From a virus: a stretch of 27,875 nucleotides of DNA. Location of the stretch: positions 1 through 27,875 of IMG/VR virus record IMGVR_UViG_3300033148_003500. One strand, written 5' to 3'. A model generated the notes under the pieces. The model saw nothing but the letters and a program-made list of their open reading frames with translations, was not told where the DNA came from and did not search any database. Positions within the stretch are counted from its first letter, which is position 1; every line of letters begins with the position of its first letter. Below, piece after piece: positions 871 through 26,099 of this stretch. Position numbers and translations under genes: made by a program.

Positions 871-3800
871 TGCCTGACTCCGGTATGCGCAAGCTGTCTA
901 TTACAAACACCTTGCGACGATTGCGGCCCTTGGTTCCTTCGATATGATACCAGCCCTTGGTTGTATCGTCATATTGATCGGAACGCATCAGATCAATTGA
1001 CCAATAACCGGAGGCGTCAGTGGTATCCCATATTGCATAGGGCGTGATGGTGTAGCCTGGCGTACTGGCCGTGACATTGATATCCGGCATCAGCCATCCC
1101 TTCACAACAATGCCACTATCGGCGGTTCCATTCGGCTTGTAAAGTGAAGCATATACAGTGGCATATGATGCCCCACCAGCGGGCGGGTCGATAACTACAT
1201 TGTAACCAAGCACCGCCAGTGAATCCTCGTTGCCAGTAATAGTTGCCGACAACGTGTCAAACTGATAGCTGGCCCCAAGCCGTGATATAAACCGTGTCAC
1301 CCCAGCGTCGAGCATGAACGTAACGTTTCCTTGATTATTAGCTACCAACGGCCCCGCCAGCGGTATACCATCGGTCGTCTGAGCCGCTATACTGACCGCA
1401 GGCACAACGGCATCGGTTCCAGATGTATCGACCGCATAGACAGTGACGGAATATAGACCGCCGCCTGTGGCCGTTGGGCCGTAGAATATGGATGGATACG
1501 CCGTAGCTGTATCCTTGACGTATTGGGCGATATCCTTTTTGTCGGCGTCGCTGATTGTAGCCGACCCCGATGCTGCATTGCCGATCCACACGCCTATATC
1601 TGAACTGTCCACGTTGTTCGTATCGATATTGCGCCATACCTCCTCCCATTCTGTACTTGTAAGGCTGAAGCCGGATTTGCCCCAAGTAGCCAGAGCGTCA
1701 GCTACAGCGTCATTGATATCCAGACTGTCGCCAGTAACGGACGGGTCGAAAGTTGATCCGGCATCGGCCAGGGATAGCATAAGACCGACCCAGCTACCGC
1801 TTATTGTATCGCCCGCCGCCCGCCGCATTAAGCTATCGATGATCGCGCCCATATCGGCATCGGCAATAGTAGCAGTGGCCCCGCTGGCCGCCGAGTCAGA
1901 TTTACGAATGACCGCCGCTGTCCAGCTAGCTGTTACCGTATCGCTCGCAGCTCGCCGCATGATGCTATCAACAATGGCAGCCATATCAGCGTCGGCAATA
2001 GTCGCCGTAGCTCCGGCACTCGATACCTTGGCATCAATTGAATCATAGACAATAGAGCCTGCCGTATATTGGGTGGAGTATGTCGACAAATCCTCGGCCC
2101 ATGTTGCGGCGGCAAACTCCTCACCAACATTGCTATGGAAATGTGTTGCTAACCAGACATTGGCTTCAAAGTCGGCAGCATCGAATGAACCACTGGTATT
2201 GTCAGCGTTGATCTTGAGTGCCACGGCTTGGATTGAATCTGCTTGCTTGGCAAGCAAACCATCCTCCACCGATGCTGCGCTCACGTCAACTATCACAGAA
2301 TCAGTTGCAGCCGCGAACGTACTGAATCCAGTAGCTTTATAATCGGCCGCATTGGCGTGGATGGAATCCTCAATTACACTACAGAAACCGTTGTCAACAA
2401 GGCTACTGATATCCGGCAAGGTCGAGTCAGTAGTTGGATCAAAGGTGGACAATCCTGATACATCGGCTTTATAATCGGCCGCGTTGGCATGTACCGAATC
2501 CTCAATGGCCGCCCGTTCAGCGGTAGACAGACCAAAGCCAGCCTTGTCTGTCAGTGCCCGCGTTGCTACAGACCATACATCAGCGGCAGCATGCGTTGAG
2601 AATCCGGTAGCCTTATAATCGGCCGCGTTGGCATGGACTGTATCCTCTATTGCAGCGAGCAATCCGCTGGCTATCATCTTGCTAATGTCTGGTAGCGTTG
2701 AATCTGTTGCGACATCAAAGGTCGACGCACCCGCGGCATAGCTCAACACGCGGCCAACCCATGACCCCGATATTGTATCAGCCACGACACGACGCATGAG
2801 GCTGTCGATAATGTCACCCATTGCATCATCTGAGATTCCGGCCCCACCAGAGGCCGCTTCACTTAGCACACGCCCCGCCCACGAACCAGTGATTGTATCG
2901 GCGACAATTCTACGCATGAGCGAGTCAATGATCGCGCCCATATCGGCGTCTGAGATTGTAGCCGAACCACCAGCGCTTGAAACCGAGGCGTCGAATAGAA
3001 TGCCGAAACTATTAGCAGTGCCGTTGTGGCTGGCAGTATCAGCGTTCCAAACTGAATCCGCTGCATGACCCGCTGCAATCTGCATATCATTCACAGTTAG
3101 AGTGTAGCCAGTCTTGTCATTGTTGTTGCTCAGATTTGTGGCCGTGGTGACGGTTGCAATAGTCTGTCCATCAATATCTATCGTCGTGGTATCCTCGTCA
3201 AGCGACGTAAGCCACCGGTAATCATCGGTGTTGCGCCACACCGAATCCTTGATAGTATTATAGGCCGTTGTTGATAAGGCGAAGTTGGCCTTGTCCGTCA
3301 ATGCCCTGATGCCCACCGCCCATACGGCATCTGCGTTATGAGTTGAGAAACCGGTAGCTTTATAGTCCGCCGCATTGCCATGGACCGAATCTTCGATGGC
3401 CGCTCGCTCAGCCGTCGTCAATGAATAACCAGTCTTGTCGTTATTGTTAGTTAGGTTGGTGGCCGTTGTTGCAACAGCAATGGTCTGACCATCTATATCA
3501 ATAGTGGTAAAATCCTCGTCGAACTGTACCAGGCGGTAGACCTCAGTACCATTCAAGTCGATTGTTGTATTGTCCTCATCAAGCTCGGTCAGAGTGCGGG
3601 CAGCGGCAGCCCATACATTAGCAGCCGAATGCGTTGACCAATCACCCTTGCCATCCAGCGACGATGCTTCAAAATCAGCAGCAGCAAGATCACCACTGGT
3701 ATTGTCAAGGTCAACTCCCGCCTCACCCGTTGCCAAAACATCCAGCGTGCGACCAGCCGTTGTTGGCTTGAGGCGGTTATGGAGAATCGTTTCTGTGGCG

Positions 3801-4063
3801 GCATAGTAAGATCCGCTGGCCCAATATTTATATATGATGCTATAATCAGTATTATCATCAAGCACAATTGAGGTATCAACATTGGTAGTGAAGATAGTGG
3901 TTGAATCGTCCTGACCTGTAGCCATATCAATATAGGTTAGAATCTGCACCGAATCCCATTGCGTATCAAACCGCAGGACCTTGTTATAGTTTGCTGCCCG
4001 CGCATCACTATAGAATGTCAAGGGCAGCAATAAGAGGGTCAGTATTGTAGTTATGAATTTCAT
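836..4063 (-). CDS. Large repeat-containing fibre-like protein with Sec signal peptide (1075 aa)
   Basis: The N-terminus (MKFITTILTLLLLPLTFYSD, then ARA before the mature part) reads as a cleavable Sec signal peptide with cleavage near residue 23. Residues about 160-850 consist of three repeat families: an AIEDSVHANAADYKATGF type (about 214-262, 264-290, 463-510, 511-558, 561-590), an ADMGAIIDSLMRR type (363-402, 403-444, 682-722, 726-770, partial 831-850) and a TIDIDGQTI type (160-180, 180-216, 287-323). The last 200 residues look like one or two Ig-like or carboxypeptidase-regulatory beta domains, with a tail-fibre-like end (IPESGNVDLTDSLAAR). AGGAG lies 6 nt before ATG 4063. Position between the tail hub and endolysin suggests a fibre or adhesin; an export signal on such a gene is unusual. 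Function is inferred. Confidence 0.75.
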   Translation of the reverse strand: MKFITTILTLLLLPLTFYSDARAANYNKVLRFDTQWDSVQILTYIDMATGQDDSTTIFTTNVDTSIVLDDNTDYSIIYKYWASGSYYAATETILHNRLKPTTAGRTLDVLATGEAGVDLDNTSGDLAAADFEASSLDGKGDWSTHSAANVWAAAARTLTELDEDNTTIDLNGTEVYRLVQFDEDFTTIDIDGQTIAVATTATNLTNNNDKTGYSLTTAERAAIEDSVHGNAADYKATGFSTHNADAVWAVGIRALTDKANFALSTTAYNTIKDSVWRNTDDYRWLTSLDEDTTTIDIDGQTIATVTTATNLSNNNDKTGYTLTVNDMQIAAGHAADSVWNADTASHNGTANSFGILFDASVSSAGGSATISDADMGAIIDSLMRRIVADTITGSWAGRVLSEAASGGAGISDDAMGDIIDSLMRRVVADTISGSWVGRVLSYAAGASTFDVATDSTLPDISKMIASGLLAAIEDTVHANAADYKATGFSTHAAADVWSVATRALTDKAGFGLSTAERAAIEDSVHANAADYKADVSGLSTFDPTTDSTLPDISSLVDNGFCSVIEDSIHANAADYKATGFSTFAAATDSVIVDVSAASVEDGLLAKQADSIQAVALKINADNTSGSFDAADFEANVWLATHFHSNVGEEFAAATWAEDLSTYSTQYTAGSIVYDSIDAKVSSAGATATIADADMAAIVDSIMRRAASDTVTASWTAAVIRKSDSAASGATATIADADMGAIIDSLMRRAAGDTISGSWVGLMLSLADAGSTFDPSVTGDSLDINDAVADALATWGKSGFSLTSTEWEEVWRNIDTNNVDSSDIGVWIGNAASGSATISDADKKDIAQYVKDTATAYPSIFYGPTATGGGLYSVTVYAVDTSGTDAVVPAVSIAAQTTDGIPLAGPLVANNQGNVTFMLDAGVTRFISRLGASYQFDTLSATITGNEDSLAVLGYNVVIDPPAGGASYATVYASLYKPNGTADSGIVVKGWLMPDINVTASTPGYTITPYAIWDTTDASGYWSIDLMRSDQYDDTTKGWYHIEGTKGRNRRKVFVIDSLRIPESGNVDLTDSLAAR
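1514..3586 (-). repeat. Intragenic protein-repeat region of the 1075-aa fibre-like protein
   Basis: The coding sequence here contains at least thirteen diverged copies of three short protein repeats. They are interleaved rather than in one tandem run: a TIDIDGQTI type, an EDSVHANAADYKATGF type and a DADMGAIIDSLMRR type. At DNA level the recurring plus-strand words include tataatcggccgc and gtcgataat/gtcaatgat variants. Such modular arrays suit elongated fibre shafts and can change length by recombination. Confidence 0.8.
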
Positions 4064-4073
4064 TTCATACTCC

Positions 4074-6698
4074 TCATTTCAGGTATCCACCCTTGATGTA
4101 TGTCCCCCGCCACGAGCCGGTTGTATCGGTCGGGCCGCCGCCTTCCTCCATGTAAGTAATAATACAACTCGGGAACACGACTGTTTTTCTTTCATTGCTC
4201 GTGTAAAAGCAAGCAGCGGGCGTGCCAGTGCCCGCTGGAGCGTATGCTGATAATAGTAAACTCACAGAACTATCGTTTGTGTAGGCGTTTTGTACCTCAT
4301 CTGTGATGTCGAGTTGATAGTCGAATATCGCAGCGTAAAGACTAACACTATCAATGATAGTACTATCGGCATCATAACAGTCATCATCGGCACCGCAATC
4401 TACAAAACCACCAGCACAATCATTGTCATTATCATCGATCCCGCCCATACAGGTAAATCGAAGAACATGCCCGATAGTATTGGTGTCGGCATCCCAATAT
4501 GCCGTATCATAGCTCCAATATTCACCACAAACCTCACCCGCCGTTGCTGCCTTAGCAGCTTTGTCCCCTTCATTCCAGGGCTTCAGAAGTCGCCGAGCAA
4601 CCAATAACTGGCCTTCGGTTATGGCCGTATTGCGCCGCTTGAGATCCAATAACGCTTCGGTAATGACCATCCCCGCCGGTACATAATCCGCAATGCTGTC
4701 GATCCGAATCACAGCACTATATCCATAATGCGCGCTCTCGGTGGCATCCCACGTAATACCCATATACATATATTTATATGCACCATAATTATTATCCTTA
4801 TGGCTGCCATAGTCATAGATACAAGCATCGTCAATCGGTCCACTGTTTACCGTGTTGTCTGTATTTTTGAGTGATATAGTCCACGTTGGTGCTGTGCCTG
4901 TGAGCGTATCAGTATAATCATTCCAGGCGATTGTCATGGAATCCTCAAGTGTATCGGAATTGACAATACAAGCAAAATGGAAATCATTGAAATTACTATC
5001 CGGTGGATTACTAGTCTGGGCATACCATTCATAATAGGTAACGATAGGATAAGCATGCCCGCTGGCATTGGTAGTATCCCACAGGGTATCGCCGTTGCCG
5101 TCGTTGGTTATCCATACCTCGACGTTAGCTTTTGGAATGCCAGACTCGACGACGACAATATCAAGGGTACGTTGCAAACCAAGCTGATACGGGTCCGGTT
5201 GATTATATACCGTAACATCATATTCATTGATGAAACTGCCCGTATATGTCATATCACGGAGATAATTATACATCCCAGTGTCGCCCGATCCATAGGAACC
5301 GGCCAAGCCAACCGTGCCTTGTTGGACGGTACCGATCTGTGCTTCAAGGACACAAGTGTCCCGATCTATCAATACCCCGGCCGCAGTACCATCATCGCCA
5401 CCAATGTTATAGCACCAACCCGGCGACGTAATATGATTACCATACCAATTGATATTGGCACCCTCCCAAGTGTAACTCGTGGTATTCATATTGAAAGCCG
5501 AGGCTATGAATATCCCGCGAATGCCATCATTATCAATATCAGTGCCCTCGGCGTGCATAGTAATAGTATTATTGTAGATCCATATATTACTATCAGGCTT
5601 ATCACAGTTTGGGAGCCAATAACAATTAGCTGCACCAGTAAGATAGGTAATACCACACGCTTTATTCCCAAGATATGATTTAGTTAGATCCCCAAGGTAG
5701 GCATGAATCTCGTTGTCGCGGACGACGACCCAATAGTTCCGGTAGCGCATTTTGAGAGCACTGACCCACAATTCGTATCCATAGTAATCATCCTCCCCCT
5801 TCTGAGCATGAATGGTATTTCCTTCAATAATTACCGTATCACCAGTCGTCCCCTCAGATGCTTGGCTTAGGATAGCTGTCTGCATCCCAGTATAGGTACT
5901 GCCAGCACAAATATAGTTATCATATATCCAGGTGCCACCAGTGAAAGCCCCGCCGATGCCGGTGCAGTTCTTTGTGCCCTCATTACTCGATCCAGACGGA
6001 TAATTATAGTAATCATTGTGGGCGTCGATCTGAAAATAGTTGTCGTGAAATAGGATCTTGCCCCCACAGGTGAAGCCTGCTGGTGCCCACAGTGAGCACA
6101 GCGACATTTCAATGGTATAGGAACCGGACAACGCTCGCCCCAGATCCAGAAATCGAATGGCGTGGCCGTCGTTTGTACCCGCCGATGTAAAGGAATGCAC
6201 GGTTGACACGAAATTGCAGCTGGTAATGTCGCACTCGATTATGTCGCCACTGCTGTAATTCATGCAATGCCCGTTAGTTCCCCTAATAAAGAAATCGACA
6301 TTTTCAATCACGATGTTATCATTGCCGCCCTCCCAAAACATACAATCACAGCTGTCGGCAATATCATCCCCAGCGTGATAAATGGCACCGTCGTGGATCG
6401 TTATATTATAAGCGTTGCTTTTGAACACCATGCCCACATCATTAGTACCAGCAGGTCGATCACCAAAAAACAAGGTGTGACCATTCATGTTAATGCGTAT
6501 GTTGTGTGTTCCTATATTAGTACGCCAAGCGGTCGCGGCTGCATCCGTTAGGTCTGAGGTCATATAATAACAGGTATCGGAAGCGCTAAATATAAAGCTG
6601 CCTGACGTAATCTCAATACTGTCGCTGCAACTCGCTGGGCCTTGAGCATTGACCAAACATGGCAACAACATAAATATAGCAACAGCCAAATATCTCAT
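4074..6698 (-). CDS. Secreted beta-helix and DNRLRE-domain protein, fibre/tailspike candidate (874 aa)
   Basis: The N-terminus MRYLAVAIFMLLPCLVNA is a short Sec signal peptide with cleavage expected after residue 18. Residues about 25-480 show the spaced Asn/Ile/Val ladder of a right-handed parallel beta-helix (NIRINMNGHTL, NITIHDGAIY, NIVIENVDF, VIIEGNTIH, IWIYNNTIT), the fold of pectate lyases and many tailspikes. About 505-610 is an Ig-like segment. About 622-850 matches the DNRLRE pattern (ALLDLKRRN, then LLKPWNEGDK and an EYWSYDTAYWDADT segment). Cysteines are unusually frequent, which fits export and disulphides. ATG 6698 (TGATG overlap with the upstream stop, GAGG at 5 nt) was preferred; ATG 6701 is one codon earlier. 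Catalytic residues cannot be assigned. It may bind or degrade surface polysaccharide, by inference. Confidence 0.78.
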   Translation of the reverse strand: MRYLAVAIFMLLPCLVNAQGPASCSDSIEITSGSFIFSASDTCYYMTSDLTDAAATAWRTNIGTHNIRINMNGHTLFFGDRPAGTNDVGMVFKSNAYNITIHDGAIYHAGDDIADSCDCMFWEGGNDNIVIENVDFFIRGTNGHCMNYSSGDIIECDITSCNFVSTVHSFTSAGTNDGHAIRFLDLGRALSGSYTIEMSLCSLWAPAGFTCGGKILFHDNYFQIDAHNDYYNYPSGSSNEGTKNCTGIGGAFTGGTWIYDNYICAGSTYTGMQTAILSQASEGTTGDTVIIEGNTIHAQKGEDDYYGYELWVSALKMRYRNYWVVVRDNEIHAYLGDLTKSYLGNKACGITYLTGAANCYWLPNCDKPDSNIWIYNNTITMHAEGTDIDNDGIRGIFIASAFNMNTTSYTWEGANINWYGNHITSPGWCYNIGGDDGTAAGVLIDRDTCVLEAQIGTVQQGTVGLAGSYGSGDTGMYNYLRDMTYTGSFINEYDVTVYNQPDPYQLGLQRTLDIVVVESGIPKANVEVWITNDGNGDTLWDTTNASGHAYPIVTYYEWYAQTSNPPDSNFNDFHFACIVNSDTLEDSMTIAWNDYTDTLTGTAPTWTISLKNTDNTVNSGPIDDACIYDYGSHKDNNYGAYKYMYMGITWDATESAHYGYSAVIRIDSIADYVPAGMVITEALLDLKRRNTAITEGQLLVARRLLKPWNEGDKAAKAATAGEVCGEYWSYDTAYWDADTNTIGHVLRFTCMGGIDDNDNDCAGGFVDCGADDDCYDADSTIIDSVSLYAAIFDYQLDITDEVQNAYTNDSSVSLLLSAYAPAGTGTPAACFYTSNERKTVVFPSCIITYMEEGGGPTDTTGSWRGTYIKGGYLK

Positions 6699-7267
6699 CA
6701 TCGCCTCGTTATTGAAGTAACGCGGGGCTTGGAAGTTGCCGCTGGAGTATATGAAATCACTACCCACAGTTGAGTGCACCGATTATTCCCACTGCCATTA
6801 TGCAGCCCCCCCGCTTCCCATGAGATCCCGTTGACTTCAGCAACCGTCCAGTCCCCACCACCAGGTTTACTTATAGCCTCTGAATATTCAACATAGCTGG
6901 TTGTCAGCGACTGAGCCGATCCGTCGTTGTCAGTAGAAGAGAATCGCAAGAACGGTGTGAATGCTGGCGACCCTAGCGCACCGGACTTCTTACTAATATA
7001 ATGTACTGTAACTGATATGTCGGTAGCTCCAGAAGGCACTGCCGGAGTTGTTGGGAACGTGCAGGAGAAACGGTTGGCGCTCTCTGAATAAATATAAGTT
7101 CCATCATCATCACTAGTAGCTTCATCAATCATGGCCCATTGATCTGTGCCAGTGCTGACGATCCAATTCCCGTCATAATTCCCCTCGGCGCTGGGACGTC
7201 GTGTCACCGAGTCAGCCCACACCATACAGGGCAGCAGAAACAATATCGCCAATAGCCACTTAATCAT
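6698..7267 (-). CDS. Secreted beta-sandwich protein of the fibre cluster (189 aa)
   Basis: MIKWLLAILFLLPCMVWA is a clear Sec signal peptide; cleavage is expected after residue 18, before DSVTRRP. The mature part is all-beta in appearance: a conserved-looking Asp/Tyr stretch (SDDDGTYIYSES), a strand-rich centre, a TSYVEYSEAI segment, and GGGDWTVAEVNGISWEAGG followed by CTQLWVVISYTP. This layout is familiar from small beta-sandwich proteins of metagenomic phages, but I cannot name a family. ATG 7267 overlaps the upstream stop by 8 nt and gives a proper signal peptide; a TTG at 7288 would add seven residues. The LLPC sequence is not a valid lipobox because Pro precedes Cys. Probably a fibre or surface accessory protein, from context. 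Confidence 0.7.
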   Translation of the reverse strand: MIKWLLAILFLLPCMVWADSVTRRPSAEGNYDGNWIVSTGTDQWAMIDEATSDDDGTYIYSESANRFSCTFPTTPAVPSGATDISVTVHYISKKSGALGSPAFTPFLRFSSTDNDGSAQSLTTSYVEYSEAISKPGGGDWTVAEVNGISWEAGGLHNGSGNNRCTQLWVVISYTPAATSKPRVTSITRR

Positions 7268-9212
7268 AAGTATATCCCACGTCCACAATTACCTCCGTAA
7301 TATCCGCATCCGGATCAGAATAGATCAAAACGTAAATAGCCTTACCCGCCGCAATGGTCGCATCATCAAAACTCGTAACCTCAGCCGTCCCGGATGTTGA
7401 CGTGATAGTACAGATAGTATCAGCGTTGGCTCTTGTCGTCCTGTCATCGGCAAACATGAGCCGCCAATCTAACTCCGTTGTCGGGTCCGCATCACAAGCC
7501 ACCTTAACCGTATCAATTGTCAGCGCGTAATCGGTTTCGATCCAAATACCGCAAACAGAGTCATCGTCAAACCATGCGTTAGGATAAGACACGACTCGAC
7601 CTATCCAATGATGCTTCTGTCGAGCCGAGAGCGAGGAGTCAGCAATCGCACCAGCAGCAGTAGCTAATTGAGTTGTGGCAACAATATGGGCAGCACTCAT
7701 GCTGTCGGCGGATATTTCACCGACCGCATGAAGGTTGTCCTCAATTACCACGGCAGTATCGGCTTTGATTGCTATATATTCCTTGCCTCCGGCAACTCGC
7801 GCATATATGATAGCGGTATCAACGCGATCTGTACCGTCTCGTAAGTATTGCCCCCAATCCGGATAAAAGCTATAATTGCGTGGCTCCGCGCTATCGCTGG
7901 CTAACACGAGGCAAGCGTCAGATGTATCGTAATACAATGCGCCGTCCTCTTGCAACCCTGCGTCCTTGAGGGGGATTTTCAACAACAAGGCAGCCCTAAC
8001 ACTATCAACATCAATCAGACCTGGCAGGGCGCTATTCGGCACAGCACTATAATTCACAAGCGAATCTGGAATACAGTCAGCCGGGCCAGTGACGTCAACC
8101 CCGATGTCGATATGGTCGGTGGCCAGGCTATCAGCGGTAACAGATCCAGACGCTTCAATGTGTCCCGTAACATATACGTCGGTATCACTCTGCCAACGTT
8201 CTTGGGCTTCATTGTAGAACCAGTCCCACAAATCACCAGCGGCATCGGTGGCTCGGATTCCCGCATCGCTACCAGAGGAATCAGCATTCAAGACAACCCA
8301 TTCTCCGGCCATGAGGGCTTTGTAACTATAAAAATCGATACCCGACAGATAGAGATATTTGTTTATGTCGTCGGCTTTGAGTTCATAGATGGTTGAGTCT
8401 CGGGCTATAAATTCAATGCCACATACTCTGTCCAAGGCCTGATAGTTGCAAGCGAAATCCCAAGTTGACCAGACCGGGTTCAATGAATCCAGGTTGCCAT
8501 CATAGCCATCAACCTGAGAAAAGATATCTGGCGTGACGCTATATTGACCATCGGAGTAGGTAATACCCCAGCCAGCTTCATCGGCACCACGCGAGGCCCT
8601 TGTTTCCCAGCTTAACACACCGGAGCCGTTAGTTTTCAATACAGCATCAGCCGCCCCATCACTCTGTGGAAAGCAGTAGTTTCCAGAAATTTGCAAGCGA
8701 TAGATATTCGTCGTATCATTAGGATCATTGCTAAAAATAGAATCGGCATAGATCGTAACCTTAACGCTGTCATTCGATGCGTTCCGCAATGGGCGACCAA
8801 TCAGACTCGAATCTGTAGTACGCCGCCATTGCCATAGGCTGTCAGTGCTCAACATCAGATTGGCCAAGGTGTCATCGATATTAGTCCACAGGCCAGCCGT
8901 AACACCAAAGCGGCCCTCTGCATTTGCAATTGAATCAAGTAGGGCGCTATCAAGCAGATTGGCAGGGTCCGACTTGAAATAGAATCCAGTTGCCGGATCA
9001 AATACTAAGGTATCATTGCTGGCGTTAAAGAACATCAATACGTTGCCGTCACGATTCATTACCGTATCGGTATCTTGCCGCCATTCGGGTAGTACTATCG
9101 GAGCGGGCTGGGCCAGCACGTCATCATAACAAACAATCAACAGCGCCGCAATGACTATGATTATAATCAGCAACAACGCATTGATCGCCTGTTTGTTTTT
9201 GACTGTATTCAT
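7260..9212 (-). CDS. Fibre-like protein with N-terminal signal/anchor (650 aa)
   Basis: The protein starts with a basic stretch (MNTVKNKQ), a very hydrophobic core (ALLLIIIIVIAALLIVC) and a signal-peptidase-like site, VLA before QPAP (about residue 34). It is either exported or membrane-anchored. The rest resembles tail-fibre sequence: low complexity, rich in Asp, Ser and Thr, with fibre-type phrases (LKTNGSGVLSWET at about 185-200 and TGHIEASGSVTADSLATDHI further on). The last 110 residues form a probable beta-sandwich ending EVIVDVGYTYD. ATG 9212 has GGAG 8 nt upstream and follows the stop of the 85-aa gene by 2 nt. It is the first of four consecutive genes with export-type N-termini. No enzyme motif was found. 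Confidence 0.72.
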   Translation of the reverse strand: MNTVKNKQAINALLLIIIIVIAALLIVCYDDVLAQPAPIVLPEWRQDTDTVMNRDGNVLMFFNASNDTLVFDPATGFYFKSDPANLLDSALLDSIANAEGRFGVTAGLWTNIDDTLANLMLSTDSLWQWRRTTDSSLIGRPLRNASNDSVKVTIYADSIFSNDPNDTTNIYRLQISGNYCFPQSDGAADAVLKTNGSGVLSWETRASRGADEAGWGITYSDGQYSVTPDIFSQVDGYDGNLDSLNPVWSTWDFACNYQALDRVCGIEFIARDSTIYELKADDINKYLYLSGIDFYSYKALMAGEWVVLNADSSGSDAGIRATDAAGDLWDWFYNEAQERWQSDTDVYVTGHIEASGSVTADSLATDHIDIGVDVTGPADCIPDSLVNYSAVPNSALPGLIDVDSVRAALLLKIPLKDAGLQEDGALYYDTSDACLVLASDSAEPRNYSFYPDWGQYLRDGTDRVDTAIIYARVAGGKEYIAIKADTAVVIEDNLHAVGEISADSMSAAHIVATTQLATAAGAIADSSLSARQKHHWIGRVVSYPNAWFDDDSVCGIWIETDYALTIDTVKVACDADPTTELDWRLMFADDRTTRANADTICTITSTSGTAEVTSFDDATIAAGKAIYVLIYSDPDADITEVIVDVGYTYD

Positions 9213-9214
9213 AG

Positions 9215-9472
9215 CTATTGCTCCAATTTTGATCGGATCGCTTTCAACTCGTCCTTGATCTCGGCTATGTCGCTCTGGATATAAATCATTCGCTCTTCTA
9301 ATCGGATCGCCGTCTTGTCGGTCGAGTCAGTCTTGATAGAAAGCGTCTTGATATCCTGAGCGTTCTGAGCGATGTCGCCAGTCGTCGTGGCCCATACCAG
9401 CCCTATCATCCCCACCAAAGCAAGGATCAACCCGCCGACGATCCACATCCAGAATTTACCATTATCATTCAC
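9215..9472 (-). CDS. Membrane-anchored coiled-coil protein, spanin or holin-accessory candidate (85 aa)
   Basis: After NDNGKF there is one transmembrane helix (about residues 8-29), then a hydrophilic heptad-like region to the end (DIAQNAQDIKTLSIKTD ... SDIAEIKDELKAIRSKLEQ) that reads as a coiled coil. This is the plan of inner-membrane spanins and of some XhlA-like lysis proteins; those act in the envelope during lysis. It sits away from the holin and hydrolase, at the head of the signal-peptide gene cluster, so a role in anchoring or exporting those proteins is also possible. The start is GTG 9472, with AGGAG 8 nt upstream. No outer-membrane spanin partner was found in the window. Confidence 0.62.
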   Translation of the reverse strand: MNDNGKFWMWIVGGLILALVGMIGLVWATTTGDIAQNAQDIKTLSIKTDSTDKTAIRLEERMIYIQSDIAEIKDELKAIRSKLEQ

Positions 9473-9483
9473 AATACTTGCTC

Positions 9484-11862
9484 CTATGTCGAAAGCTGTA
9501 CCGCCGTGACCTGAGTATATACGTCAGGAGCGCAGCCATGCCGTAATTCTGTAATCATGAAATGAGTGTTCTCCCAAGTATCGCCATATATCTTGAGGTG
9601 CGGGTCGCATGATTCGTGATCGAACGTAATGTGATCGCCAACCTCAAGATCGGTATTCGTGAATCCAAGGGCTGTGAACTTAACATAGTTATGCGGCCGG
9701 GACCAAAGACCTTCCCCCCAACCCTCATCAGTTTGAGCCAGATCAGGATCGCCAACAAGCATCCGGCCAATATAGGCCGCGCCCTGCCATGGCGGGATAT
9801 CAGTTGGGTTATATCTGGCCGATATGTTTGGCCAATGAACCTCGGCAGCAATGATTCCATAAAGTGCTTGTGACTCCACATCATTCAATTGGAACTGTAC
9901 GCGATAAATATCCTTTTCCTGGTGATAGCGACAATTGACAACAAGCCGGTTGGCATATATGGGTGTTTTGCCTATAGTGATATCACCATCCTTGATATGG
10001 GTGAAGTGAATTGTGCGGCTAGTCGTTGCCGACAACCAACCGGCGTGTAATAGATTGATACAACGAGCCACACCGCGCGCATCCCATTGAAATGCAAAAG
10101 TTGATTGCTCCGACAGTTGTTGAATTGTCTGGTTGATTGTTAAGTTATTATCGCTATGGAGTTGGATATGTACCGGATGCTTACAATACAAACCATCTGG
10201 TCCCAGCGATATTACCACATCGTAACATTCATCAAATCTATTGGTATCGATAGGTGGGGCTATGTCGGCATAATTGCGTAGAATATCCTCTATAATCCCG
10301 GCTGATGATACGATGACATCACCGGGGCCATGATGAGGCAAAGATAAATTATTCCATCGAGATGATGGACTTTCAATCCACGAGCCATAGAGACGCCCTT
10401 CTGCCGCTGCATAACAAATAGTGGGTTGCTCGGGTGGAGATAATAAAATGCGAGCCTGGAATTCATATGCCCGCCATACAAGCTGATTCTCAGGGATATC
10501 ATCGCCAGCTGCAATGACGACCACCCATAATAACATAGCCGGAGAATAGTACTCGCCATTGTCAGGATCTACCTCAAAAGCATTCTGCCCTTGAATGATA
10601 CACCATTCCCACGATGTTTGATCCCATGCTACGTCCCCAAAGCGGCCCTGCTGTCCGATGTATCCGGTTGCCGTGCCATCCGTCCCAAAATATAAAGTTG
10701 CTAGGGGTGATACTCCTACATCTCCAGACACATCTTGATGGGCATTATATATCCCCGCTTGCATATATCTATTAGAACCTGGCGCAGCCAACAATGTCTT
10801 TCTGAACAATACATCCTGTGCAAAATAGAATGGTGCCCAACCGAAAACATTTCCTCCGAAATCCTCGCCGTCATAAATACGCAGATAGGTATTTAACAAT
10901 CCATCAGTTGCACTATCGGCTGATGTGACACGATAATTTTTGACCGGCGCACCTGAGTATGCAGGCCAGACATCACCTTCGGCATAAGCAATTAAGGGGA
11001 AATACGCATATCCATAGCCTGCGCTTGTATCAACAACAACAGGCCCAACCACCGTCCCGCTGCTTGTTTCATTGATAGCAGGAATAGGGCAGTCATTGAG
11101 AGAAAGATATACCGACCCGACAGAGTTGATTGCTGTATTAGCTATGACATAACTAAAGAACCCATCTATCGTTTTATAAGCTATTGCTTTAGCTAATCCA
11201 TTCCCCGCGAATGGATCGTCCCGGTCCCCCAATGAATTGCCTGCAAAATAGTTGTCTCGGTTAAAATTCTCATTCCAGATGCCCCATAACTCCGGCACAA
11301 ATTCTCCTTTATTATCCGTAGGTACTTCAGCTGCGGGCAGATCCTCTATTTTATCCGTCAATATTGTATGGTTATATGCCTTACCCCACGATGAGGCCTT
11401 GATTGTGATCGTTGCGGGCGTGATTTGTATATCCGTAATTGGACCAGAGAACTTTAGGAGCCATGTAGTAACACTCACCGAGGCAAATTCGCCAACCGCC
11501 AAATATATGTCGACACTGTTGGCGTGCTCCCAAATATTGCCGTCAGCGTTGACAACCTGGTCGAGTGGTTTGACCATAGTATTTGATACTATATCTGCGA
11601 CGGATATATTCATCAATTTAATGGTTGTTGAGGGGAATGAAAGCCGTCGCGTCTCCCAATCAAGTCGTTCTGTAAATGGACTAATTGACTTTAGTACCGG
11701 TTGCAATTGTCCCGCATTTAGACCACCACCAGCAAGGGACCGAAATGCAAAATTGCTCGCATAGAACGATTCGGCAGTAGGCGTATTAACCCTCACAATA
11801 CAGCCACCAGTAGATACTACGCTATCTTTGGCCACTTCATATACTGTATTCAATTCCCGCAC
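9484..11862 (-). CDS. Tail hub / tip attachment protein (792 aa)
   Basis: The protein has the layout of siphovirus tail hub (Tal or gp27-like) proteins, which close the end of the tail tube and carry fibres. An N-terminal beta region (about 60-170) contains LLKFSGPITDIQITPATITI, the usual strand pattern before the hub barrel. The C-terminal third contains FQWDARGVARCINLL, the IKDGDITIGKTPIYANRLVV segment, and LEVGDHITFDHESCDPHLKI near the end. The middle (about 210-500) is an insertion rich in aromatic residues that may be a carbohydrate-binding or jelly-roll domain. GTG 11862 overlaps the upstream stop as TAGTG with GGAG 10 nt upstream. It lies after the tape measure and distal tail genes, as expected. 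No lysozyme motif is visible. Confidence 0.7.
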   Translation of the reverse strand: MRELNTVYEVAKDSVVSTGGCIVRVNTPTAESFYASNFAFRSLAGGGLNAGQLQPVLKSISPFTERLDWETRRLSFPSTTIKLMNISVADIVSNTMVKPLDQVVNADGNIWEHANSVDIYLAVGEFASVSVTTWLLKFSGPITDIQITPATITIKASSWGKAYNHTILTDKIEDLPAAEVPTDNKGEFVPELWGIWNENFNRDNYFAGNSLGDRDDPFAGNGLAKAIAYKTIDGFFSYVIANTAINSVGSVYLSLNDCPIPAINETSSGTVVGPVVVDTSAGYGYAYFPLIAYAEGDVWPAYSGAPVKNYRVTSADSATDGLLNTYLRIYDGEDFGGNVFGWAPFYFAQDVLFRKTLLAAPGSNRYMQAGIYNAHQDVSGDVGVSPLATLYFGTDGTATGYIGQQGRFGDVAWDQTSWEWCIIQGQNAFEVDPDNGEYYSPAMLLWVVVIAAGDDIPENQLVWRAYEFQARILLSPPEQPTICYAAAEGRLYGSWIESPSSRWNNLSLPHHGPGDVIVSSAGIIEDILRNYADIAPPIDTNRFDECYDVVISLGPDGLYCKHPVHIQLHSDNNLTINQTIQQLSEQSTFAFQWDARGVARCINLLHAGWLSATTSRTIHFTHIKDGDITIGKTPIYANRLVVNCRYHQEKDIYRVQFQLNDVESQALYGIIAAEVHWPNISARYNPTDIPPWQGAAYIGRMLVGDPDLAQTDEGWGEGLWSRPHNYVKFTALGFTNTDLEVGDHITFDHESCDPHLKIYGDTWENTHFMITELRHGCAPDVYTQVTAVQLST

Positions 11863-18471: not shown

Positions 18472-18893
18472 TACTCGGCATCCTCTATCGCATCAAGAAT
18501 CGCATGGTGAGTTGCTTCGTGAGCCATTAGATACTCGGCGGACTGGACATAACTGCGGCCAAGCCGTTTCTCACCAAAGAACATCCATGGTCCTTTTTTC
18601 TTAATTACACCAGCCCCAATAGCTTTCTGAATCAGGGCCTTAGTATTAGCCTGGAAACCGGGTGCCATGTTCGCTGACGGTTCCAGAGCTTTATTTGCCG
18701 TCGGACCCGATGCCATCTTTTGACCAGCAAAGGCTTCTATCGACAATTCAAAGTTATGAGGGAACGCCGTGCAAAGTTGCGTTGCGACTCCGGGTGCTAT
18801 GTCTTGCACCATACCATCAGTCCACGATTTGATATTCGACTTGGCACTCGGAAGCGTCTGGTATTGCTCCGTCGCATGGAATTTGACTTTCAT
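18471..18893 (-). CDS. Unknown protein in the connector region (140 aa)
   Basis: No family is recognised. It begins MKVKFHATEQYQTLPSAKSN, has a low-complexity Ala/Pro/Ser centre (about 55-85), and ends with helices (YLMAHEATHHAILDAIEDAE). The His/Glu-rich end contains HEATHH, which resembles an HExxH zinc site but has the wrong spacing. ATG 18893 has GGAG 9 nt upstream and makes a 77-nt out-of-frame overlap with the glycosyltransferase C-terminus; a later ATG at 18812 would remove the overlap but lacks a ribosome site. The stop overlaps the adaptor start as TAATG. A neck role is inferred from position. Confidence 0.6.
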   Translation of the reverse strand: MKVKFHATEQYQTLPSAKSNIKSWTDGMVQDIAPGVATQLCTAFPHNFELSIEAFAGQKMASGPTANKALEPSANMAPGFQANTKALIQKAIGAGVIKKKGPWMFFGEKRLGRSYVQSAEYLMAHEATHHAILDAIEDAE

Positions 18894-19854
18894 TGTCCGT
18901 ACTCCGTATCATATCGAGCATTCGTTCTTTACTTTCGGCGAGACCATATCTTTTGATTGCGGTAAAGGCATTGGTTATTACGTGATTGTAGATATCCTCA
19001 TCCCCAACCAGATTTATCAATGCGGCTCGCTGTTGTGCTATATCAAAGCTATCGGTTGTCAATGATGGCCATAGCAGTTCCTGCATATAGATATCTTTTG
19101 TCCCAATCGTCGGCACCCCAAAAATAGCATTCTCCATTTGGATGCGTCCCGCGGCTGGAATGCCGTGATATGAGTCAACCATAACTAACTGCTGCGCCGC
19201 AAACTTGAGATATTCAGAGTAGGGCATTGGCTTTCGCACGATATCGAAAAATCCCGTAAGCCTTACGTCACTTGGCCACGCCACCGCATATGTCCGATAA
19301 CCTATGTCAGTACAGACAATTGATGGCGTAAGCCATTCATTATCATAGCGGTGGATAAATGCGCAGAGGCCGCCCGTGCGGACTTCTGGCGTCATCGCTT
19401 CGGCCAATATGCCATCAATATCAACGGGATGGCTGAGCAGTTGAACAGGTACTTCTTGGCCGAGTAATGTTTTAAGATATCCCACCGCCGAGGGTTCTTG
19501 GCATATAACAAAGTCGGCTTGTCGTAATGCCATCGTCAGGCCAGCAGGATTATAATGCTGCTTCCAAAGCGCCACACTATAATCAACCCCGATTACTAGT
19601 GTCGTCTTCTCTTTGTCAATCTCGGCCCGCACTTTCTGAGCCAGAAAGGTTGTATGATCGTTACTTGATAGGTTGATATAAATAATATCATATTGATTCA
19701 GGTTCCCGCGTACTTCACCATAAGATATCCAATCGCCGCCAAAGGCCTTACTCCAGCAGGCTGAACCTGTCATGCGAACATCATTAGTCTTCAATATCTC
19801 GGCCACGTCGGTGCTGACATGCAAAAACTTAGGTGGTTGAATTTGTAAACTCAT
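18817..19854 (-). CDS. GT-B fold glycosyltransferase (345 aa)
   Basis: The two Rossmann halves of a GT-B enzyme can be read. The N-terminal half contains KFLHVSTDVAEILKTND, QYDIIYINLSS, and ADFVICQEPSAVGYLKTLLG with LLSHPVDID. The C-terminal half holds GGLCAFIHRYDNEWLTPSIV, YSEYLKFAAQQLVMVDSYHG, and the sugar-nucleotide signature AAGRIQMENAIFGVPTIGT with its conserved Glu. Such enzymes transfer a sugar from an activated donor to a protein or glycan. There is no membrane segment. The gene lies between capsid and connector genes, with no clear Shine-Dalgarno before ATG 19854 and a hairpin just upstream. A virion protein is a plausible acceptor, by inference; host surface modification is the main alternative. 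Confidence 0.8.
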   Translation of the reverse strand: MSLQIQPPKFLHVSTDVAEILKTNDVRMTGSACWSKAFGGDWISYGEVRGNLNQYDIIYINLSSNDHTTFLAQKVRAEIDKEKTTLVIGVDYSVALWKQHYNPAGLTMALRQADFVICQEPSAVGYLKTLLGQEVPVQLLSHPVDIDGILAEAMTPEVRTGGLCAFIHRYDNEWLTPSIVCTDIGYRTYAVAWPSDVRLTGFFDIVRKPMPYSEYLKFAAQQLVMVDSYHGIPAAGRIQMENAIFGVPTIGTKDIYMQELLWPSLTTDSFDIAQQRAALINLVGDEDIYNHVITNAFTAIKRYGLAESKERMLDMIRSTDNESQIPCDGAIPDASECQVEYQIVD

Positions 19855-20218: not shown

Positions 20219-22372
20219 TTAGGTTATGTTGTATAGCAATCCAACCGGCAGCACGGTCGTGGTCTCACATAGTGTCTGGAAATCCTTGCGCATAGTCGCA
20301 ATGAATCCCATCTGGCCGGTATATGGATCACGGGCATACTCGATCGTCACGCCGCGTCGCACGCCAACCCGCCAGGCGGTTGTGTTGTAATGAATCAAGC
20401 ATCGCTTCGCACCGCTGTTGGTCACTGTACCATCGGTATGTTGACCCTGTGACAACTGATCGGAGATCAATACATCATGGCCATCGAATGAGAATATCTC
20501 ACCCGTCAGCCAAGTAGCATTAGCACCATAGGTGCCAGGCTGTGACGCCTGCGCCAGGGAAAGCAGGTCGAAATACGGGCCAAGTGACGTAACGCATTTG
20601 ACTTCACGAGGGTTGACACCATAAGATCCCATGATCTCTCGATTAGCTCGAATCGATGCCGCTTCTAAGGCTCCGCCTTCACTGGTATGCGCCGAACGGT
20701 CGATGGCTGTATAGCGCATCCCCATGGCAGTGCTCTCGGGGCTAATCGATGTATAGCCAACGTCAGTATCCCGATGAGTGGCGGTGGTGTCACCATTCAG
20801 GATAACCGAATCCATACCTTTGGCCAAGCAGCGGGCTATTCGGCTACGGACCTCTGACGCGACATCGAAGATCGCATCTTCCTCAAATTCATCCGATAGC
20901 CGAACCAGGCCGTTGAATTTGGTGGCCGTGAATGTCACCTTACCGGTCCCGATATCAGATGCCAGCATATTGCTGGGGTTATTGGTGGTAGCTTCGGCGG
21001 CTACGTACATAGTCGGCAAGCTGGTCACAACAGGATAAGTGGCGGGGTTGCTCGGCATATTATAGACCGGAATGGTCGGCTCGACGACCGCTTCCATTTT
21101 GATCTCGTCAAATAGGGCTTGAGCCATAATCTCAGGTACCCATTCGTCACCGAGATCCGTCCCGGTCGAATACATTGCCTTGAACTGTGGGTCAACAGCA
21201 TCCAGCAACTTCTCGTAAATTGCAAAGGCTTTGCATTCCTCCTTTGCTCCACGATACATATTACCGCGGATACCATGGCGATACGCGTTCTCGATCAGCA
21301 GCACGTCGGCGGCATTGCGAAATGCCTTGAGCGTTTCAGCTTCCCGTGTACCGTCTTCCTTGACCGGGGTGATAAGCAGTTCGCGCATCCGAGCCTTGCC
21401 AGCCATCAGAGCCTTGCCACTGTCTGTCGTGTGCCGATCAAAACAAGCTGCCCGACTCACGAGATCGCCGGGGCTGACACGAGTTTCGTTATACATAGCG
21501 ACTGCTTTCTGACCATCCTCGACTTGCTTTTTGATAGCAAGAAAGTCATCGGCCATCGCCTTCTTGAATTCCTCGACTTCGGACTGCGAGGCCGTGCCAC
21601 CCTCTACAGCCTTCACCTTCTCGCCCAGAGTTCGCAGCATTTCGGCTGCTTTCTGGGTCTGGTTCTCCATGTCGCCCACTCGGGATAACGCCGTCTCTAC
21701 CTGTGTTTCGGTAGCACTCAACTTATCCGTCAAGGCCTTCAGTTCTTCTGGGGTCATTACATTACTCCTGTGGTGTTTGCCTCCGGCACGGTTTTGAGGC
21801 GATTGGTTTATTGATTTCAATTCTAAGCCATGTTGTTTGGCCTGTTCAAATAGCGCCCCCCGATTGGCGGGGATGTTTACAACTGACACTTCCCATAGGT
21901 TTAAGGCTTCAACAATATCGGGGTCTTTGTCTTCTCCAAATGTCAAAGTAACATATGAGAAACCAATCGATAGGGCCTTGAGAATCCCATTATCGACGAG
22001 CAGAGCAACATCTTTGCCCTCCGCTGTATTATAGATTACACCTTCAACCCACAAACCCCGATCATCAATCTTATAGTTAAGCCATTTCCCGATTGGCTTC
22101 TCTGACCAGTGATGCCCAAAGAGCATAACCGGGAACTCCATAAATGAGGCCATTGTACCGGCGAAAGCAGATGGCAGCACTATCTCGTTATATGAATCCA
22201 CGTCGTTGGTAGAAGCATAGCCTTCTATCCGCATCGCGATGTCAGCATCATCTGGTTGGGCAGCCTTGCCTGTGATAGTAGCCATGCAAACTCGATGTTT
22301 GATATCGCCATCCTTGGGCGGTTCAATATTTCGCCGAGCCGCCATCTTAGCTAATAGTTCTTTCCAATCCAT
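20219..22372 (-). CDS. Prohead protease fused to HK97-fold major capsid protein (717 aa)
   Basis: Residues about 45-180 form a HK97-type prohead protease: FGHHWSEKPIGKW gives the catalytic His (87/88), LKALSIGFSY the Ser (135), and LWEVSVVNIPANRGA the third conserved region (Glu161). A linker follows, then from about 206 a helical scaffold-like delta domain (MTPEELKALTDKLSATE and heptads to about 300), and from about 310 the HK97-fold capsid (STGTDLGDEWVPEIMAQALF, RVGVRRGVTIEYA). Family proteases and capsids are usually separate genes. GAGGAG lies 5 nt before ATG 22372. A second strong start at 21757 would yield a 512-aa capsid alone. The protease would mature the head by removing the delta domain. 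Confidence 0.9.
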   Translation of the reverse strand: MDWKELLAKMAARRNIEPPKDGDIKHRVCMATITGKAAQPDDADIAMRIEGYASTNDVDSYNEIVLPSAFAGTMASFMEFPVMLFGHHWSEKPIGKWLNYKIDDRGLWVEGVIYNTAEGKDVALLVDNGILKALSIGFSYVTLTFGEDKDPDIVEALNLWEVSVVNIPANRGALFEQAKQHGLELKSINQSPQNRAGGKHHRSNVMTPEELKALTDKLSATETQVETALSRVGDMENQTQKAAEMLRTLGEKVKAVEGGTASQSEVEEFKKAMADDFLAIKKQVEDGQKAVAMYNETRVSPGDLVSRAACFDRHTTDSGKALMAGKARMRELLITPVKEDGTREAETLKAFRNAADVLLIENAYRHGIRGNMYRGAKEECKAFAIYEKLLDAVDPQFKAMYSTGTDLGDEWVPEIMAQALFDEIKMEAVVEPTIPVYNMPSNPATYPVVTSLPTMYVAAEATTNNPSNMLASDIGTGKVTFTATKFNGLVRLSDEFEEDAIFDVASEVRSRIARCLAKGMDSVILNGDTTATHRDTDVGYTSISPESTAMGMRYTAIDRSAHTSEGGALEAASIRANREIMGSYGVNPREVKCVTSLGPYFDLLSLAQASQPGTYGANATWLTGEIFSFDGHDVLISDQLSQGQHTDGTVTNSGAKRCLIHYNTTAWRVGVRRGVTIEYARDPYTGQMGFIATMRKDFQTLCETTTVLPVGLLYNIT
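21755..21769 (-). promoter_or_regulatory. Internal ribosome binding site and ATG of the capsid domain
   Basis: Inside the fusion, AGGAG (21769-21765) precedes an in-frame ATG (21757) by 7 nt. The ATG falls exactly where the protease linker ends and the capsid delta domain begins (MTPEELKAL). Such spacing matches the strongest starts in this operon. Use of this start would make capsid without protease. Confidence 0.6.
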
Positions 22373-22374
22373 AT

Positions 22375-24441
22375 TTACTCCTCATCCTCCGCTATTACTG
22401 GCAGTAGGGTACAATAACAGTTTACTACGTTGCGAGCGCTGGCATTCGTATCATTAGGATACATCATAGCCTCGCCGCCAACCATGAATCGTTGATTGAG
22501 CGGAATGGCCTCAACCGTCCCCATCGCTGTATGCCATGCCCGGCTGGTCGGCAGATACGCTGGTAGCCATTTCTTCTTTTCCACCCCAGCTTGGCCATAC
22601 CCCAAAAAGGAACCGCCGTTTATCATCGCCCCGGTCTCAGTCCGGGCAATTACCATCGCCCTGCCTGTACTGAAATCCCCATATAGCTCTTTTAACTTCT
22701 GAGCAGTTAGGTCATAGCCCCAACCCTCAGTATAGGATTCATCGAGCAGTTCTTGAATCCGGGTATACGTCGTTTCGTTAATCCCTACAATTCGCGTAGC
22801 CACTTGGTCTTTCATCAGGCTAACGGCTGGATTGGTAACGTCAAAGGTTAGATCTACTCGGACCTGATTAACGGCTCTACCACCGGCCTCGTTTATGCGG
22901 GCATCAATAAATGGGCTGGCTTTGTCTTTAAGTTTTGCATCCTCACTCTCGGGGTCAAGCAACCCACCGCCTTTGGCCTTGATTGCAATCACCATCTGGA
23001 TATGCGATAAACTATTGCGACCGATCATAAAGGCTTTGAGGGCTTCCTGCGCCCGCTTCTCTTGGCCAAGCCAATATTGGCGCATCAATGTGGCCAGACT
23101 CTTCTCGTGCTGTTGAGCTAAGACATAATGAGCCTGCCAGATATTTTCTTCGGCTGAGCGTGGTTCTGCGAGGCTGCGATCCGCGACCCCGCCATCATCG
23201 GTCCCGGTTAGAGCAACGGCGGTCGGAGTTTCCTTGAACTCATCACCATCATCAACCGGCTCAAGATTGACCATTTCCCTAGCTTCGTTGCGAGTAGCTA
23301 ACTGTCCCTGGTACAGACGGTAGGCTCGTTGAGCCTGCTTGTTACGATCAGGCTGCAATGCCTCGATTTGTGAGTTGTCAGTCTGTATCCGATAATTGTC
23401 ACCATACTTGCGGGCCAACTGGATTGTTAGCGCAGCACAGATCACCCGCTGCCAGGGGATGATCGTATCCTGCCAAAACGAGCGCCTCTGTTCCCTGGCA
23501 GTGGCATAATTAGCGACTTCTACCCCGGCGATCACTGGTGGCACGCCTAAAGCCGATAGCGTGGTATCTCGTGGTATGGTATGCAATGCATCAACCATTA
23601 GATCCTTGAGGGGTGGGGATATCTGAGTATATGTAGTACCATCACCAATGACCGCTATCTGATGAGCATTAGCAGTGCCAGCATAAGCCTTGATCCATTG
23701 CTTTTTGGTTTCGGCTATAACTGATTCATCAACCGACTGTTCAGTCGTCAGTATACCGGTTGGCACGGCGTGCTTCTGAAAGAATGTCGCCAGGTGATTG
23801 CTATAGTATTCGTTCAGAGCCACCTTGGGAGATAGGGCCGTGATCGGTGATTGACCATAGATATCATGGAGAATAGACGGATAGGTTATGTGGATAACCT
23901 GTTCAAGCTCAAGCCGCTTCTCTTTATTACCATAGGTAATAACCCAATGATCCAGATCGCCGGTAGCCTTTGAAACGACCGCTCTTATGATCTGGGGTCG
24001 GCAATGATATAAAGCAAGTATGCCAGGGCTATCGTCGAATACTAGAAAAGCATCACCCGTGAACAGGCTCATTGTCAGCTTCCAGAGTAGAATATCCCAT
24101 GACTCCAATTGATTCGGTCGTTTCAGCAATTCAGCCAGCGGGCCAACTTCTAAATTGATCCAACCTAAATTGCCATCCATCCGCGTTTCCGCTTGAGCCA
24201 CCAACGGCGACGCGGCTACGTTCTGAGCAATTCTGGTCACGCCAACCATTACCCAAGGATCGGTCTGCATAACATTGGCCAGCTTATGGACATTATCTAG
24301 CTTAGGTAGGGGATGGCCTGGCAGTACCGACCCCATATTGTAACCGATAGATGGATTGCCCTTCCAGGCCATCCCCGCCAATCGAGATATGTTGCCCATA
24401 AAGGCGATCATTCTGAGGATCGGATTATTTGTGTCTCTCAC
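22375..24441 (-). CDS. Portal protein fused to a Mu gpF-like head morphogenesis domain (688 aa)
   Basis: The first 420 or so residues match HK97-type portals: WVMVGVTRIAQNVAASPLVA, LTGDAFLVFD-type core (FTGDAFLVFDDSPG), DIYGQSPITALSPKVALNEY, and PRDTTLSALGVPPVIAGVE. Portals form the dodecameric DNA entry ring. From about residue 530 the sequence changes to a MuF pattern: ARTETGAMINGGSFLGYGQA, EKKKWLPAYLPTSRAWHTAM and VVNCYCTLLPV. MuF-like proteins are minor head proteins, and some carry toxin domains; none is seen here. GTG 24441 overlaps the terminase stop as GTGA; an ATG at 24483 would add 14 residues and a longer overlap. The gene ends 2 nt before the protease-capsid gene. Confidence 0.88.
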   Translation of the reverse strand: MRDTNNPILRMIAFMGNISRLAGMAWKGNPSIGYNMGSVLPGHPLPKLDNVHKLANVMQTDPWVMVGVTRIAQNVAASPLVAQAETRMDGNLGWINLEVGPLAELLKRPNQLESWDILLWKLTMSLFTGDAFLVFDDSPGILALYHCRPQIIRAVVSKATGDLDHWVITYGNKEKRLELEQVIHITYPSILHDIYGQSPITALSPKVALNEYYSNHLATFFQKHAVPTGILTTEQSVDESVIAETKKQWIKAYAGTANAHQIAVIGDGTTYTQISPPLKDLMVDALHTIPRDTTLSALGVPPVIAGVEVANYATAREQRRSFWQDTIIPWQRVICAALTIQLARKYGDNYRIQTDNSQIEALQPDRNKQAQRAYRLYQGQLATRNEAREMVNLEPVDDGDEFKETPTAVALTGTDDGGVADRSLAEPRSAEENIWQAHYVLAQQHEKSLATLMRQYWLGQEKRAQEALKAFMIGRNSLSHIQMVIAIKAKGGGLLDPESEDAKLKDKASPFIDARINEAGGRAVNQVRVDLTFDVTNPAVSLMKDQVATRIVGINETTYTRIQELLDESYTEGWGYDLTAQKLKELYGDFSTGRAMVIARTETGAMINGGSFLGYGQAGVEKKKWLPAYLPTSRAWHTAMGTVEAIPLNQRFMVGGEAMMYPNDTNASARNVVNCYCTLLPVIAEDEE

Positions 24442-26099
24442 GATATCAGCGATCCTCTCTGAAACATGGTTCCGGCAAGGCAAGCGTAATTGTCGGCGTG
24501 CTGGTGGTGGTCAGGTAGATTACCCTCGTCCCAGATATACCGAGCCTTGTCCTCGTCATATTTACGGACGGCGGCTGTCATCTGAGGCACAAAATCACCG
24601 TGGTCCAGCGCTTCCCAACCTTTCGGCAATTGAATCGCCCCTTGTGCATAACGGGCATAGGCCGCATCGAGACTGGCTGTGCGATCCACAACAATTCGCC
24701 GCTTCTTGTGGTCCGGAGCACGCTCGACATCGGCTGTACTGCGATTGCTCGTGTATGTACAGGTATACCAACCAGCGTGACGACGGCACCAGTCACGGGC
24801 CGCATGGTGTTCTGGTTCGGCATCAATAACGCCGCGTTTCACGTGAAACATTGCGCAAACTCGCTGTAGTTCATCCCAATCCTTAACCGAGCCAACATAG
24901 ACCTTGCGGGGCACGCTATTGGTGAACTCTTCAATGTGCAGGTGTAATGTAGCCCCAACATCAACCCCGGCATAAGTGCGATCAGCAGCGGCGGGCATGG
25001 TGTAGTCGCTGGCACAGAATGATAATGTGCTCCATGTAAAACTATCACCACTGCCCTTGTATGGTTCGCCAAGGATGTTGTTTGCAAACCGCTGCCTCTG
25101 AGTTGGGTTCCCCTCTGAGGCCACCCAATCTCTGAACATCTGGTAAATGACTGGAATGCCGCGAACATCAGCAAAGAGCTTTGAAATCTTATATCCACGA
25201 GATAGATATACATCAGGCCGGGCAGCGACCCATTGCCCCGGTGTCAATCTATCAAAGAAATCATTACACCGGCGGCACTGTGCGTGAGCATCAGCACCGC
25301 CGCGTGTGAATGGAGGAATACTGCCGATACCAAGATCACCATCCCTTAACAACCATTGACCATCGTTGTCTTGCCTAACAAAATTCTGCTTCCAGGCCAA
25401 TTCTTGTCGTTCGCCGCAATGAGGACATTTAACCAACCAAGTCTGTTGATCTGAATCGGTATATAGCTTGTTGATTCCCATTCCCTGTTGAGTTGGATTA
25501 CCAAACTTGCGCATGATCGGTTGCTCGGCTGCGCCTAGGCGGTCCTCGGCATAGATTAGGTTTTGCTGGTCACAGCGGTCGTACTCGTCGATAAGCAGAG
25601 CGCCAGCCGGAAACTCAAAGAAGTTTGATCGCTGACGAGACCCAACAAACTTCCAGCTGGCATTGAATAGGGTTTTGAGGCCCACACTGTCAGCATAGGC
25701 CTTGCCCCGACCCTGCTTAATACAGTAGAATGGAGATATCTCAAGACCCCGGTCAACTCGATTCTTGACAAAGGTATTGCGCCACTCGTCGGTTGGTAGA
25801 ACATACAGACCATCGATCTTACCGAAGGCCAGAGTCATCATATCACAGAGCGCCCATTCGGTGATCCCTACCTGTGAGGCTTTCTGAACAATGATATTGG
25901 GGGAATTGTCCTGATAGAGAGCAGTCAGCCAGGCGCGGTTAGAACCAAACTCAAGTACGGCCCCAGCCCCCGTTCTGTGGTGCAGATAGCCCATTGCCCA
26001 CCGGGGCCAATCGTGGGCCATCAATGCCACTGCCAGCTTGTCAGCATCGGCTAGCGATAAGTCAGAAGCGTTTGCGGTGCTGTTCAAAAGCGTCGGCAA
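24438..26099 (-). CDS. Large terminase subunit, lambda GpA-like (about 553 aa)
   Basis: This is the ATP-driven packaging motor and nuclease. The ATPase part shows a Walker A-like loop in VQKASQVGITEW and a Walker B in GALLIDEYDRC. A four-Cys zinc-finger-like insert follows (CPHCGERQ ... CRRCN), typical of the GpA family. The C-terminal nuclease includes YAGVDVGATLHLHIEE, GVIDAEPEHHA and DHHQHADNYACL, where acidic residues would hold metal. The start is uncertain: the frame is open to ATG 26216, but that would overlap the small subunit by 155 nt. TTG 26099, with GAGG 5 nt upstream, is my choice; TTG 26087, GTG 30 and ATG 26021 remain possible. Confidence 0.92.
   Translation of the reverse strand: MPTLLNSTANASDLSLADADKLAVALMAHDWPRWAMGYLHHRTGAGAVLEFGSNRAWLTALYQDNSPNIIVQKASQVGITEWALCDMMTLAFGKIDGLYVLPTDEWRNTFVKNRVDRGLEISPFYCIKQGRGKAYADSVGLKTLFNASWKFVGSRQRSNFFEFPAGALLIDEYDRCDQQNLIYAEDRLGAAEQPIMRKFGNPTQQGMGINKLYTDSDQQTWLVKCPHCGERQELAWKQNFVRQDNDGQWLLRDGDLGIGSIPPFTRGGADAHAQCRRCNDFFDRLTPGQWVAARPDVYLSRGYKISKLFADVRGIPVIYQMFRDWVASEGNPTQRQRFANNILGEPYKGSGDSFTWSTLSFCASDYTMPAAADRTYAGVDVGATLHLHIEEFTNSVPRKVYVGSVKDWDELQRVCAMFHVKRGVIDAEPEHHAARDWCRRHAGWYTCTYTSNRSTADVERAPDHKKRRIVVDRTASLDAAYARYAQGAIQLPKGWEALDHGDFVPQMTAAVRKYDEDKARYIWDEGNLPDHHQHADNYACLAGTMFQRGSLIS

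Follow-up and report, generated by a model that had tools for sequence, protein, structure and literature searches.

In UL26/UL26.5 of herpesviruses, a protease is joined to an assembly protein, and a shorter product that lacks the protease is nested inside. In phage lambda, an in-frame start nested past the protease region of gene C yields the downstream part, Nu3, alone (PMC8508860, citing Shaw and Murialdo 1980), and a nested scaffold start is likewise described for Mu-like phages (Mu I/Z; PMC4378225), as far as the covered parts of these sources go. Genes in which the protease is fused to the capsid protein are also known, from the portions of the literature covered, in actinophages, thaumarchaeal proviruses, MD8 and Gifsy-2 (PMC5513430, PMC10793303, PMC6563490, PMC8508860). 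The 'Major capsid and protease fusion protein' of Circum (gp12), Maggie (gp7) and Alucard (gp5), and that of RcBaka, each combine the protease with the capsid within one gene (PMC5513430, PMC10793303) and are annotated, in the passages covered, as a single product; the genes of Gifsy-2 and MD8 are tripartite, with protease, scaffold and capsid in one gene (PMC8508860, covered in part). Protease-capsid fusions are thus not new, and neither are nested scaffold starts. For a conserved nested start that serves the capsid itself, no report was found in the literature searched, which consists in part of extracts and does not extend to the key paper on Gifsy-2.

The window analysed here, an entire IMG/VR virus record of 27,875 bases, carries a gene of the same layout. 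Downstream of a portal gene and a gpA-type terminase gene, an ORF with an ATG start (20219-22372, minus strand) encodes 717 aa, and the proposal of a preliminary description of this DNA, that protease and capsid share one frame, was borne out by Pfam, which recognises Peptidase_S78 at residues 43-176 (3.7e-22; 21845-22246, minus strand) and Phage_capsid at residues 412-531 (2.3e-12). The catalytic residues are present in the Peptidase_S78 domain, and H87, S135, E161 and S163 are invariant across 40 fused proteins. In the AlphaFold model (mean pLDDT 77), residues 177-206 are disordered; they comprise the linker (residues 177-205, 21758-21844, pLDDT < 50), which is followed by a delta/scaffold region (residues 206-402, 21167-21757, its domain border being approximate) and by an HK97-fold capsid domain (about residues 408-717, 20222-21151), all on the minus strand. 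The long helices modelled at residues 208-257 and 263-297, after the disordered stretch, are as would be expected of a delta/scaffold domain. The best structural match of the capsid part is with T5-type capsids (Foldseek, T5/DT57C, E 3.8e-16), and the capsid sequence match starts from residue 401. With an S78 protease and an HK97-fold capsid in one open frame, the gene agrees in architecture with HK97-type protease-capsid fusions.

Within this frame, the minus strand reads CACAGGAGTAATGTAATGACC, in which AGGAG (21769-21765) is followed by a 7-nt spacer and an in-frame ATG (21757-21755) encoding Met206, every coordinate being as first described. Initiation there would give a predicted 512-aa capsid precursor (20219-21757, minus strand). 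Met206 aligns with Met1 of the separate capsid genes of T5-like phages and of Bacillus phage Silence and ends the disordered stretch, which places the nested start between the protease linker and the delta domain, exactly at the domain border as had been claimed; there are stops in both other frames right at this protease/capsid junction. The site had also been called strong: it is indeed conserved, with an anti-SD duplex energy of -6.9 kcal/mol, but the protease start upstream pairs more strongly (-9.3 kcal/mol); its Shine-Dalgarno (SD) sequence GAGGAG (22378-22383, minus strand) lies 5 nt before the ATG at 22372 and overlaps the end and stop of the portal gene. As the protease start of the window also has weaker RNA structure than the nested one, the figures of the window do not by themselves imply that capsid is made in excess; among relatives, the nested SD is stronger than that of the upstream start in 28 of 51. 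Synonymous recoding of the preceding codons of this ORF yielded a site at or below -5.3 kcal/mol in 11% of draws, so that the single site of the window is by itself only suggestive, and it is the conservation in relatives that makes it convincing. An out-of-frame minimal ATG-TAA overlaps the nested ATG (window 21762-21757, minus strand, AGGAGTAATGTAATG); lying 2 nt from the SD and absent among the relatives listed, it was given no role.

The arrangement differs from the nested genes of herpesviruses, lambda and Mu in the protein concerned. In herpesviruses a nested transcript is used and the partner of the protease is a scaffold, whereas here it is the shell protein. In lambda Nu3 and Mu Z, the nested product is a scaffold and the capsid lies in a separate gene, whereas here the nested product would be the major capsid protein with its own delta domain. 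The locus has in common with Nu3-type genes an in-frame SD and start within a longer gene, conserved in relatives, but it lacks the defining feature of that family, as its nested product contains the capsid domain; the comparison with Nu3 drawn in the preliminary description, which already made this distinction, is apt in the light of the nested starts described in the covered parts of the lambda and Mu-like literature (PMC8508860, PMC4378225). Among cultured phages, the closest relatives are T5-like (Demerecviridae): their S78 protease, delta domain and capsid follow one another as in the window, with a match in structure, but a stop codon divides their protease gene from their capsid gene, whereas the window has one open frame. 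In Bacillus phage Silence, too, the two proteins are encoded by separate genes that lie side by side.

Relatives were collected by alignment-based scans of IMG/VR, which recovered both fused and separate protease-capsid genes; alignments were needed, since single-sequence searches with the window protein or the portal found no relatives among viral contigs, and a search of genome contigs gave only 7 matches, all with separate genes, from which no host was assigned. Excluding L057, which has no recognisable capsid domain, 52 of the 53 non-redundant fused ORFs were retained. An in-frame ATG or GTG at codons 160-262, preceded by a sequence whose duplex with the anti-SD reaches -5.3 kcal/mol or lower, was present at the border in 51 of these 52, and was the best internal start of the gene in 40. 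A later scan added 20 non-redundant fusions, 19 with the site, giving 70 of 72 non-redundant environmental fusions; of the two exceptions, L028 falls under the cut-off and L211 has no site. Strong starts are concentrated in this region (0.0099 per codon inside codons 160-262 versus 0.0017 outside), and 44 of the 785 other internal ATG/GTG codons are as strong. Synonymous recoding, evaluated at that same codon, predicts 19.5 of 52 (37% per gene) versus the 51 observed; the nominal probability of 51 or more (6e-21) is overstated, as are the counts, because the sequences are related and not independent. In the clade of the window, Met206 is an invariant column inside a variable linker. As a control, the upstream portal-MuF fusion of the window displayed SD-like starts scattered along its ORF and none at its domain border (nearest, 508 TTG).

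The conservation extends to the nucleotide level. Among close relatives, the synonymous codons -6 to -1 before the nested start are identical in 111 of 125 comparisons (89%) and codons 0 to +5 in 100 of 118, against a level of about 57% elsewhere; no other stretch of the gene is as conserved at synonymous positions as codons -6 to -1. Because the sites were chosen by SD strength, the figure for the upstream codons is somewhat biased, but this does not apply to codons +3 and +4, synonymously identical in 52 of 52. The SD core is found in all three codon phases, so that the encoded dipeptide varies (KE, GE, RS) while the SD is kept. From these alignments we conclude that synonymous sites at the nested start are under selection. 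RNA structure is also weaker at the nested sites than at other internal starts (-5.0 versus -11.1 kcal/mol), but accessibility was rejected as evidence of codon-level selection, as synonymous recoding gives nearly the same value (-4.97 versus -5.28): the low structure is due to amino-acid composition, not to codon choice.

The same site is found in distant cultured fusions. Starts were scanned gene-wide and the border site picked by eye, and an SD-preceded in-frame ATG was present at the protease/scaffold border in 8 of 8 cultured fusions, of S78 and ClpP types: Rhodococcus RRH1 (codon 274), Gifsy-2 (221), Arthrobacter Circum (165) and Maggie (160), Microbacterium Alucard (166), Escherichia mEp043 (188), Pseudomonas D14L (220) and Rhodobacter RcBaka (214). 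Those of Circum, Maggie, Alucard and RcBaka are very distant in sequence from the window. Gifsy-2, mEp043 and D14L are one family and were counted as a single lineage; the tripartite capsid gene of Gifsy-2, reportedly treated by Effantin in 2010, carries its nested SD/ATG at the protease border as the window does, but has a ClpP-type protease and is an independent fusion. Conservation of the SD/ATG pair, set beforehand as the test of the nested start, was thus found in environmental and cultured fusions alike, together with elevated synonymous conservation. The nested start at 21757 is strongly supported by these comparisons, being conserved in sequence, position and frame.

We consider it very probable that this one gene has two translation products, the 717-aa fusion and a 512-aa precursor forming most of the shell, with the protease built into the prohead as a minority. 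Ribosomes starting at 22372 would make the protease-delta-capsid chain, and those starting at 21757 the delta-capsid precursor that would be the bulk of the shell. In HK97-type subunits the N-terminal delta domain is established to face inward (PMC10275583), so that a protease fused to it would sit inside the prohead. Carried by a minority of shell subunits, the protease would be incorporated sub-stoichiometrically and would later cut away the delta domains and itself. We infer in this way the making of both products, their ratio, their co-assembly and the self-release.

It could be argued instead that only the full-length fusion is made, with a protease on every subunit that is removed later, and that the nested SD/ATG is due to chance or is a relic of separate genes. 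SD-like sequences easily arise in Lys/Glu-rich linkers, as the 37% per gene under synonymous recoding illustrates, and a fused ancestor could have inherited the site from separate genes, fused and separate genes being mixed on the tree. A relic would decay, however, whereas the site is kept across divergent fusions with the top synonymous conservation of the gene, and independent fusions with other proteases carry it too, which makes this reading highly improbable. An assembly or sequencing error that deleted a stop codon has a practically negligible probability: the stops in both other frames at the junction mean that one indel would separate the genes, but the relatives refute it, the same fusion recurring across 72 non-redundant contigs as well as named phages. 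The capsid might also be made alone from a nested promoter and a shorter transcript, in the manner of herpesvirus UL26/UL26.5, and the nested SD would then act on that transcript. A sigma70-like match does lie at 21849-21820, some 60 nt before the nested start, but such matches are no more frequent than in shuffles (8 found versus 5.8 +/- 2.4 expected), and initiation on the long mRNA requires no extra element; we regard this as very unlikely.

The two products could, finally, exist without any role for the fusion, the protease working equally well alone, the missing stop being tolerated and the chain being cut in the linker, which is disordered in the AlphaFold model and might be where cleavage occurs. 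Separate genes serve the same purpose in T5-like phages that share about 50% identity with the fused L095. Frameshifts and stops should then be scattered in the linker, but on the protease and capsid tree the separate genes mainly form one T5-like clade nested among the fused ones, plus a few outliers (3 changes of label, L102 being counted as fused), although this test is biased, since the fused genes were chosen for having an open frame. The tree has no known root, and we claim no direction of change. Among relatives the linker is anywhere between 21 and 111 codons long, with the frame open throughout, and the four protease residues remain invariant; judging from these sequences, the fusion itself is maintained, besides the nested site. 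A fusion without a role is thus unlikely, if less so than the other alternatives. L102 (2978-4930) carries a fused protease-capsid gene with one in-frame TAG in the delta region, which may be either an error, a mutation or a recoded TAG. In a third arrangement (L173, L184, L188, L200, L208, L228 and others), a separate capsid gene follows an ORF of 460-640 aa whose N-terminal part is an S78 protease; around codons 260-305, several of these ORFs contain a strong in-frame SD/ATG that resembles the start of a Nu3-type nested scaffold.

Fused protease-capsid genes pose a puzzle of stoichiometry, one protease per shell subunit, to which the two-product reading with its conserved nested start offers a testable solution. 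It seems rather probable that a rule holds in tailed phages, every protease-capsid fusion having a nested capsid start and the fusion serving as a built-in means of dosing the protease and bringing it into the head on a minority of shell subunits; it would have arisen in several lineages independently, with two unrelated proteases. On the two-product reading, the annotation of many such genes should change to two products instead of one, and cultured phages with the fusion, such as Maggie or Alucard, are suited to a direct test.

Elsewhere on the minus strand of the window, a single 702-aa ORF (22375-24483) joins the portal protein with a head morphogenesis domain (MuF/SPP1 gp7-like) at its C-terminus, and the tail region (836-11862) contains four large ORFs of 650-1075 aa with no Pfam or PHROG match. 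A 345-aa ORF (18817-19854) with no Pfam match, between the capsid and head-tail connector genes, looks by eye like a putative glycosyltransferase.
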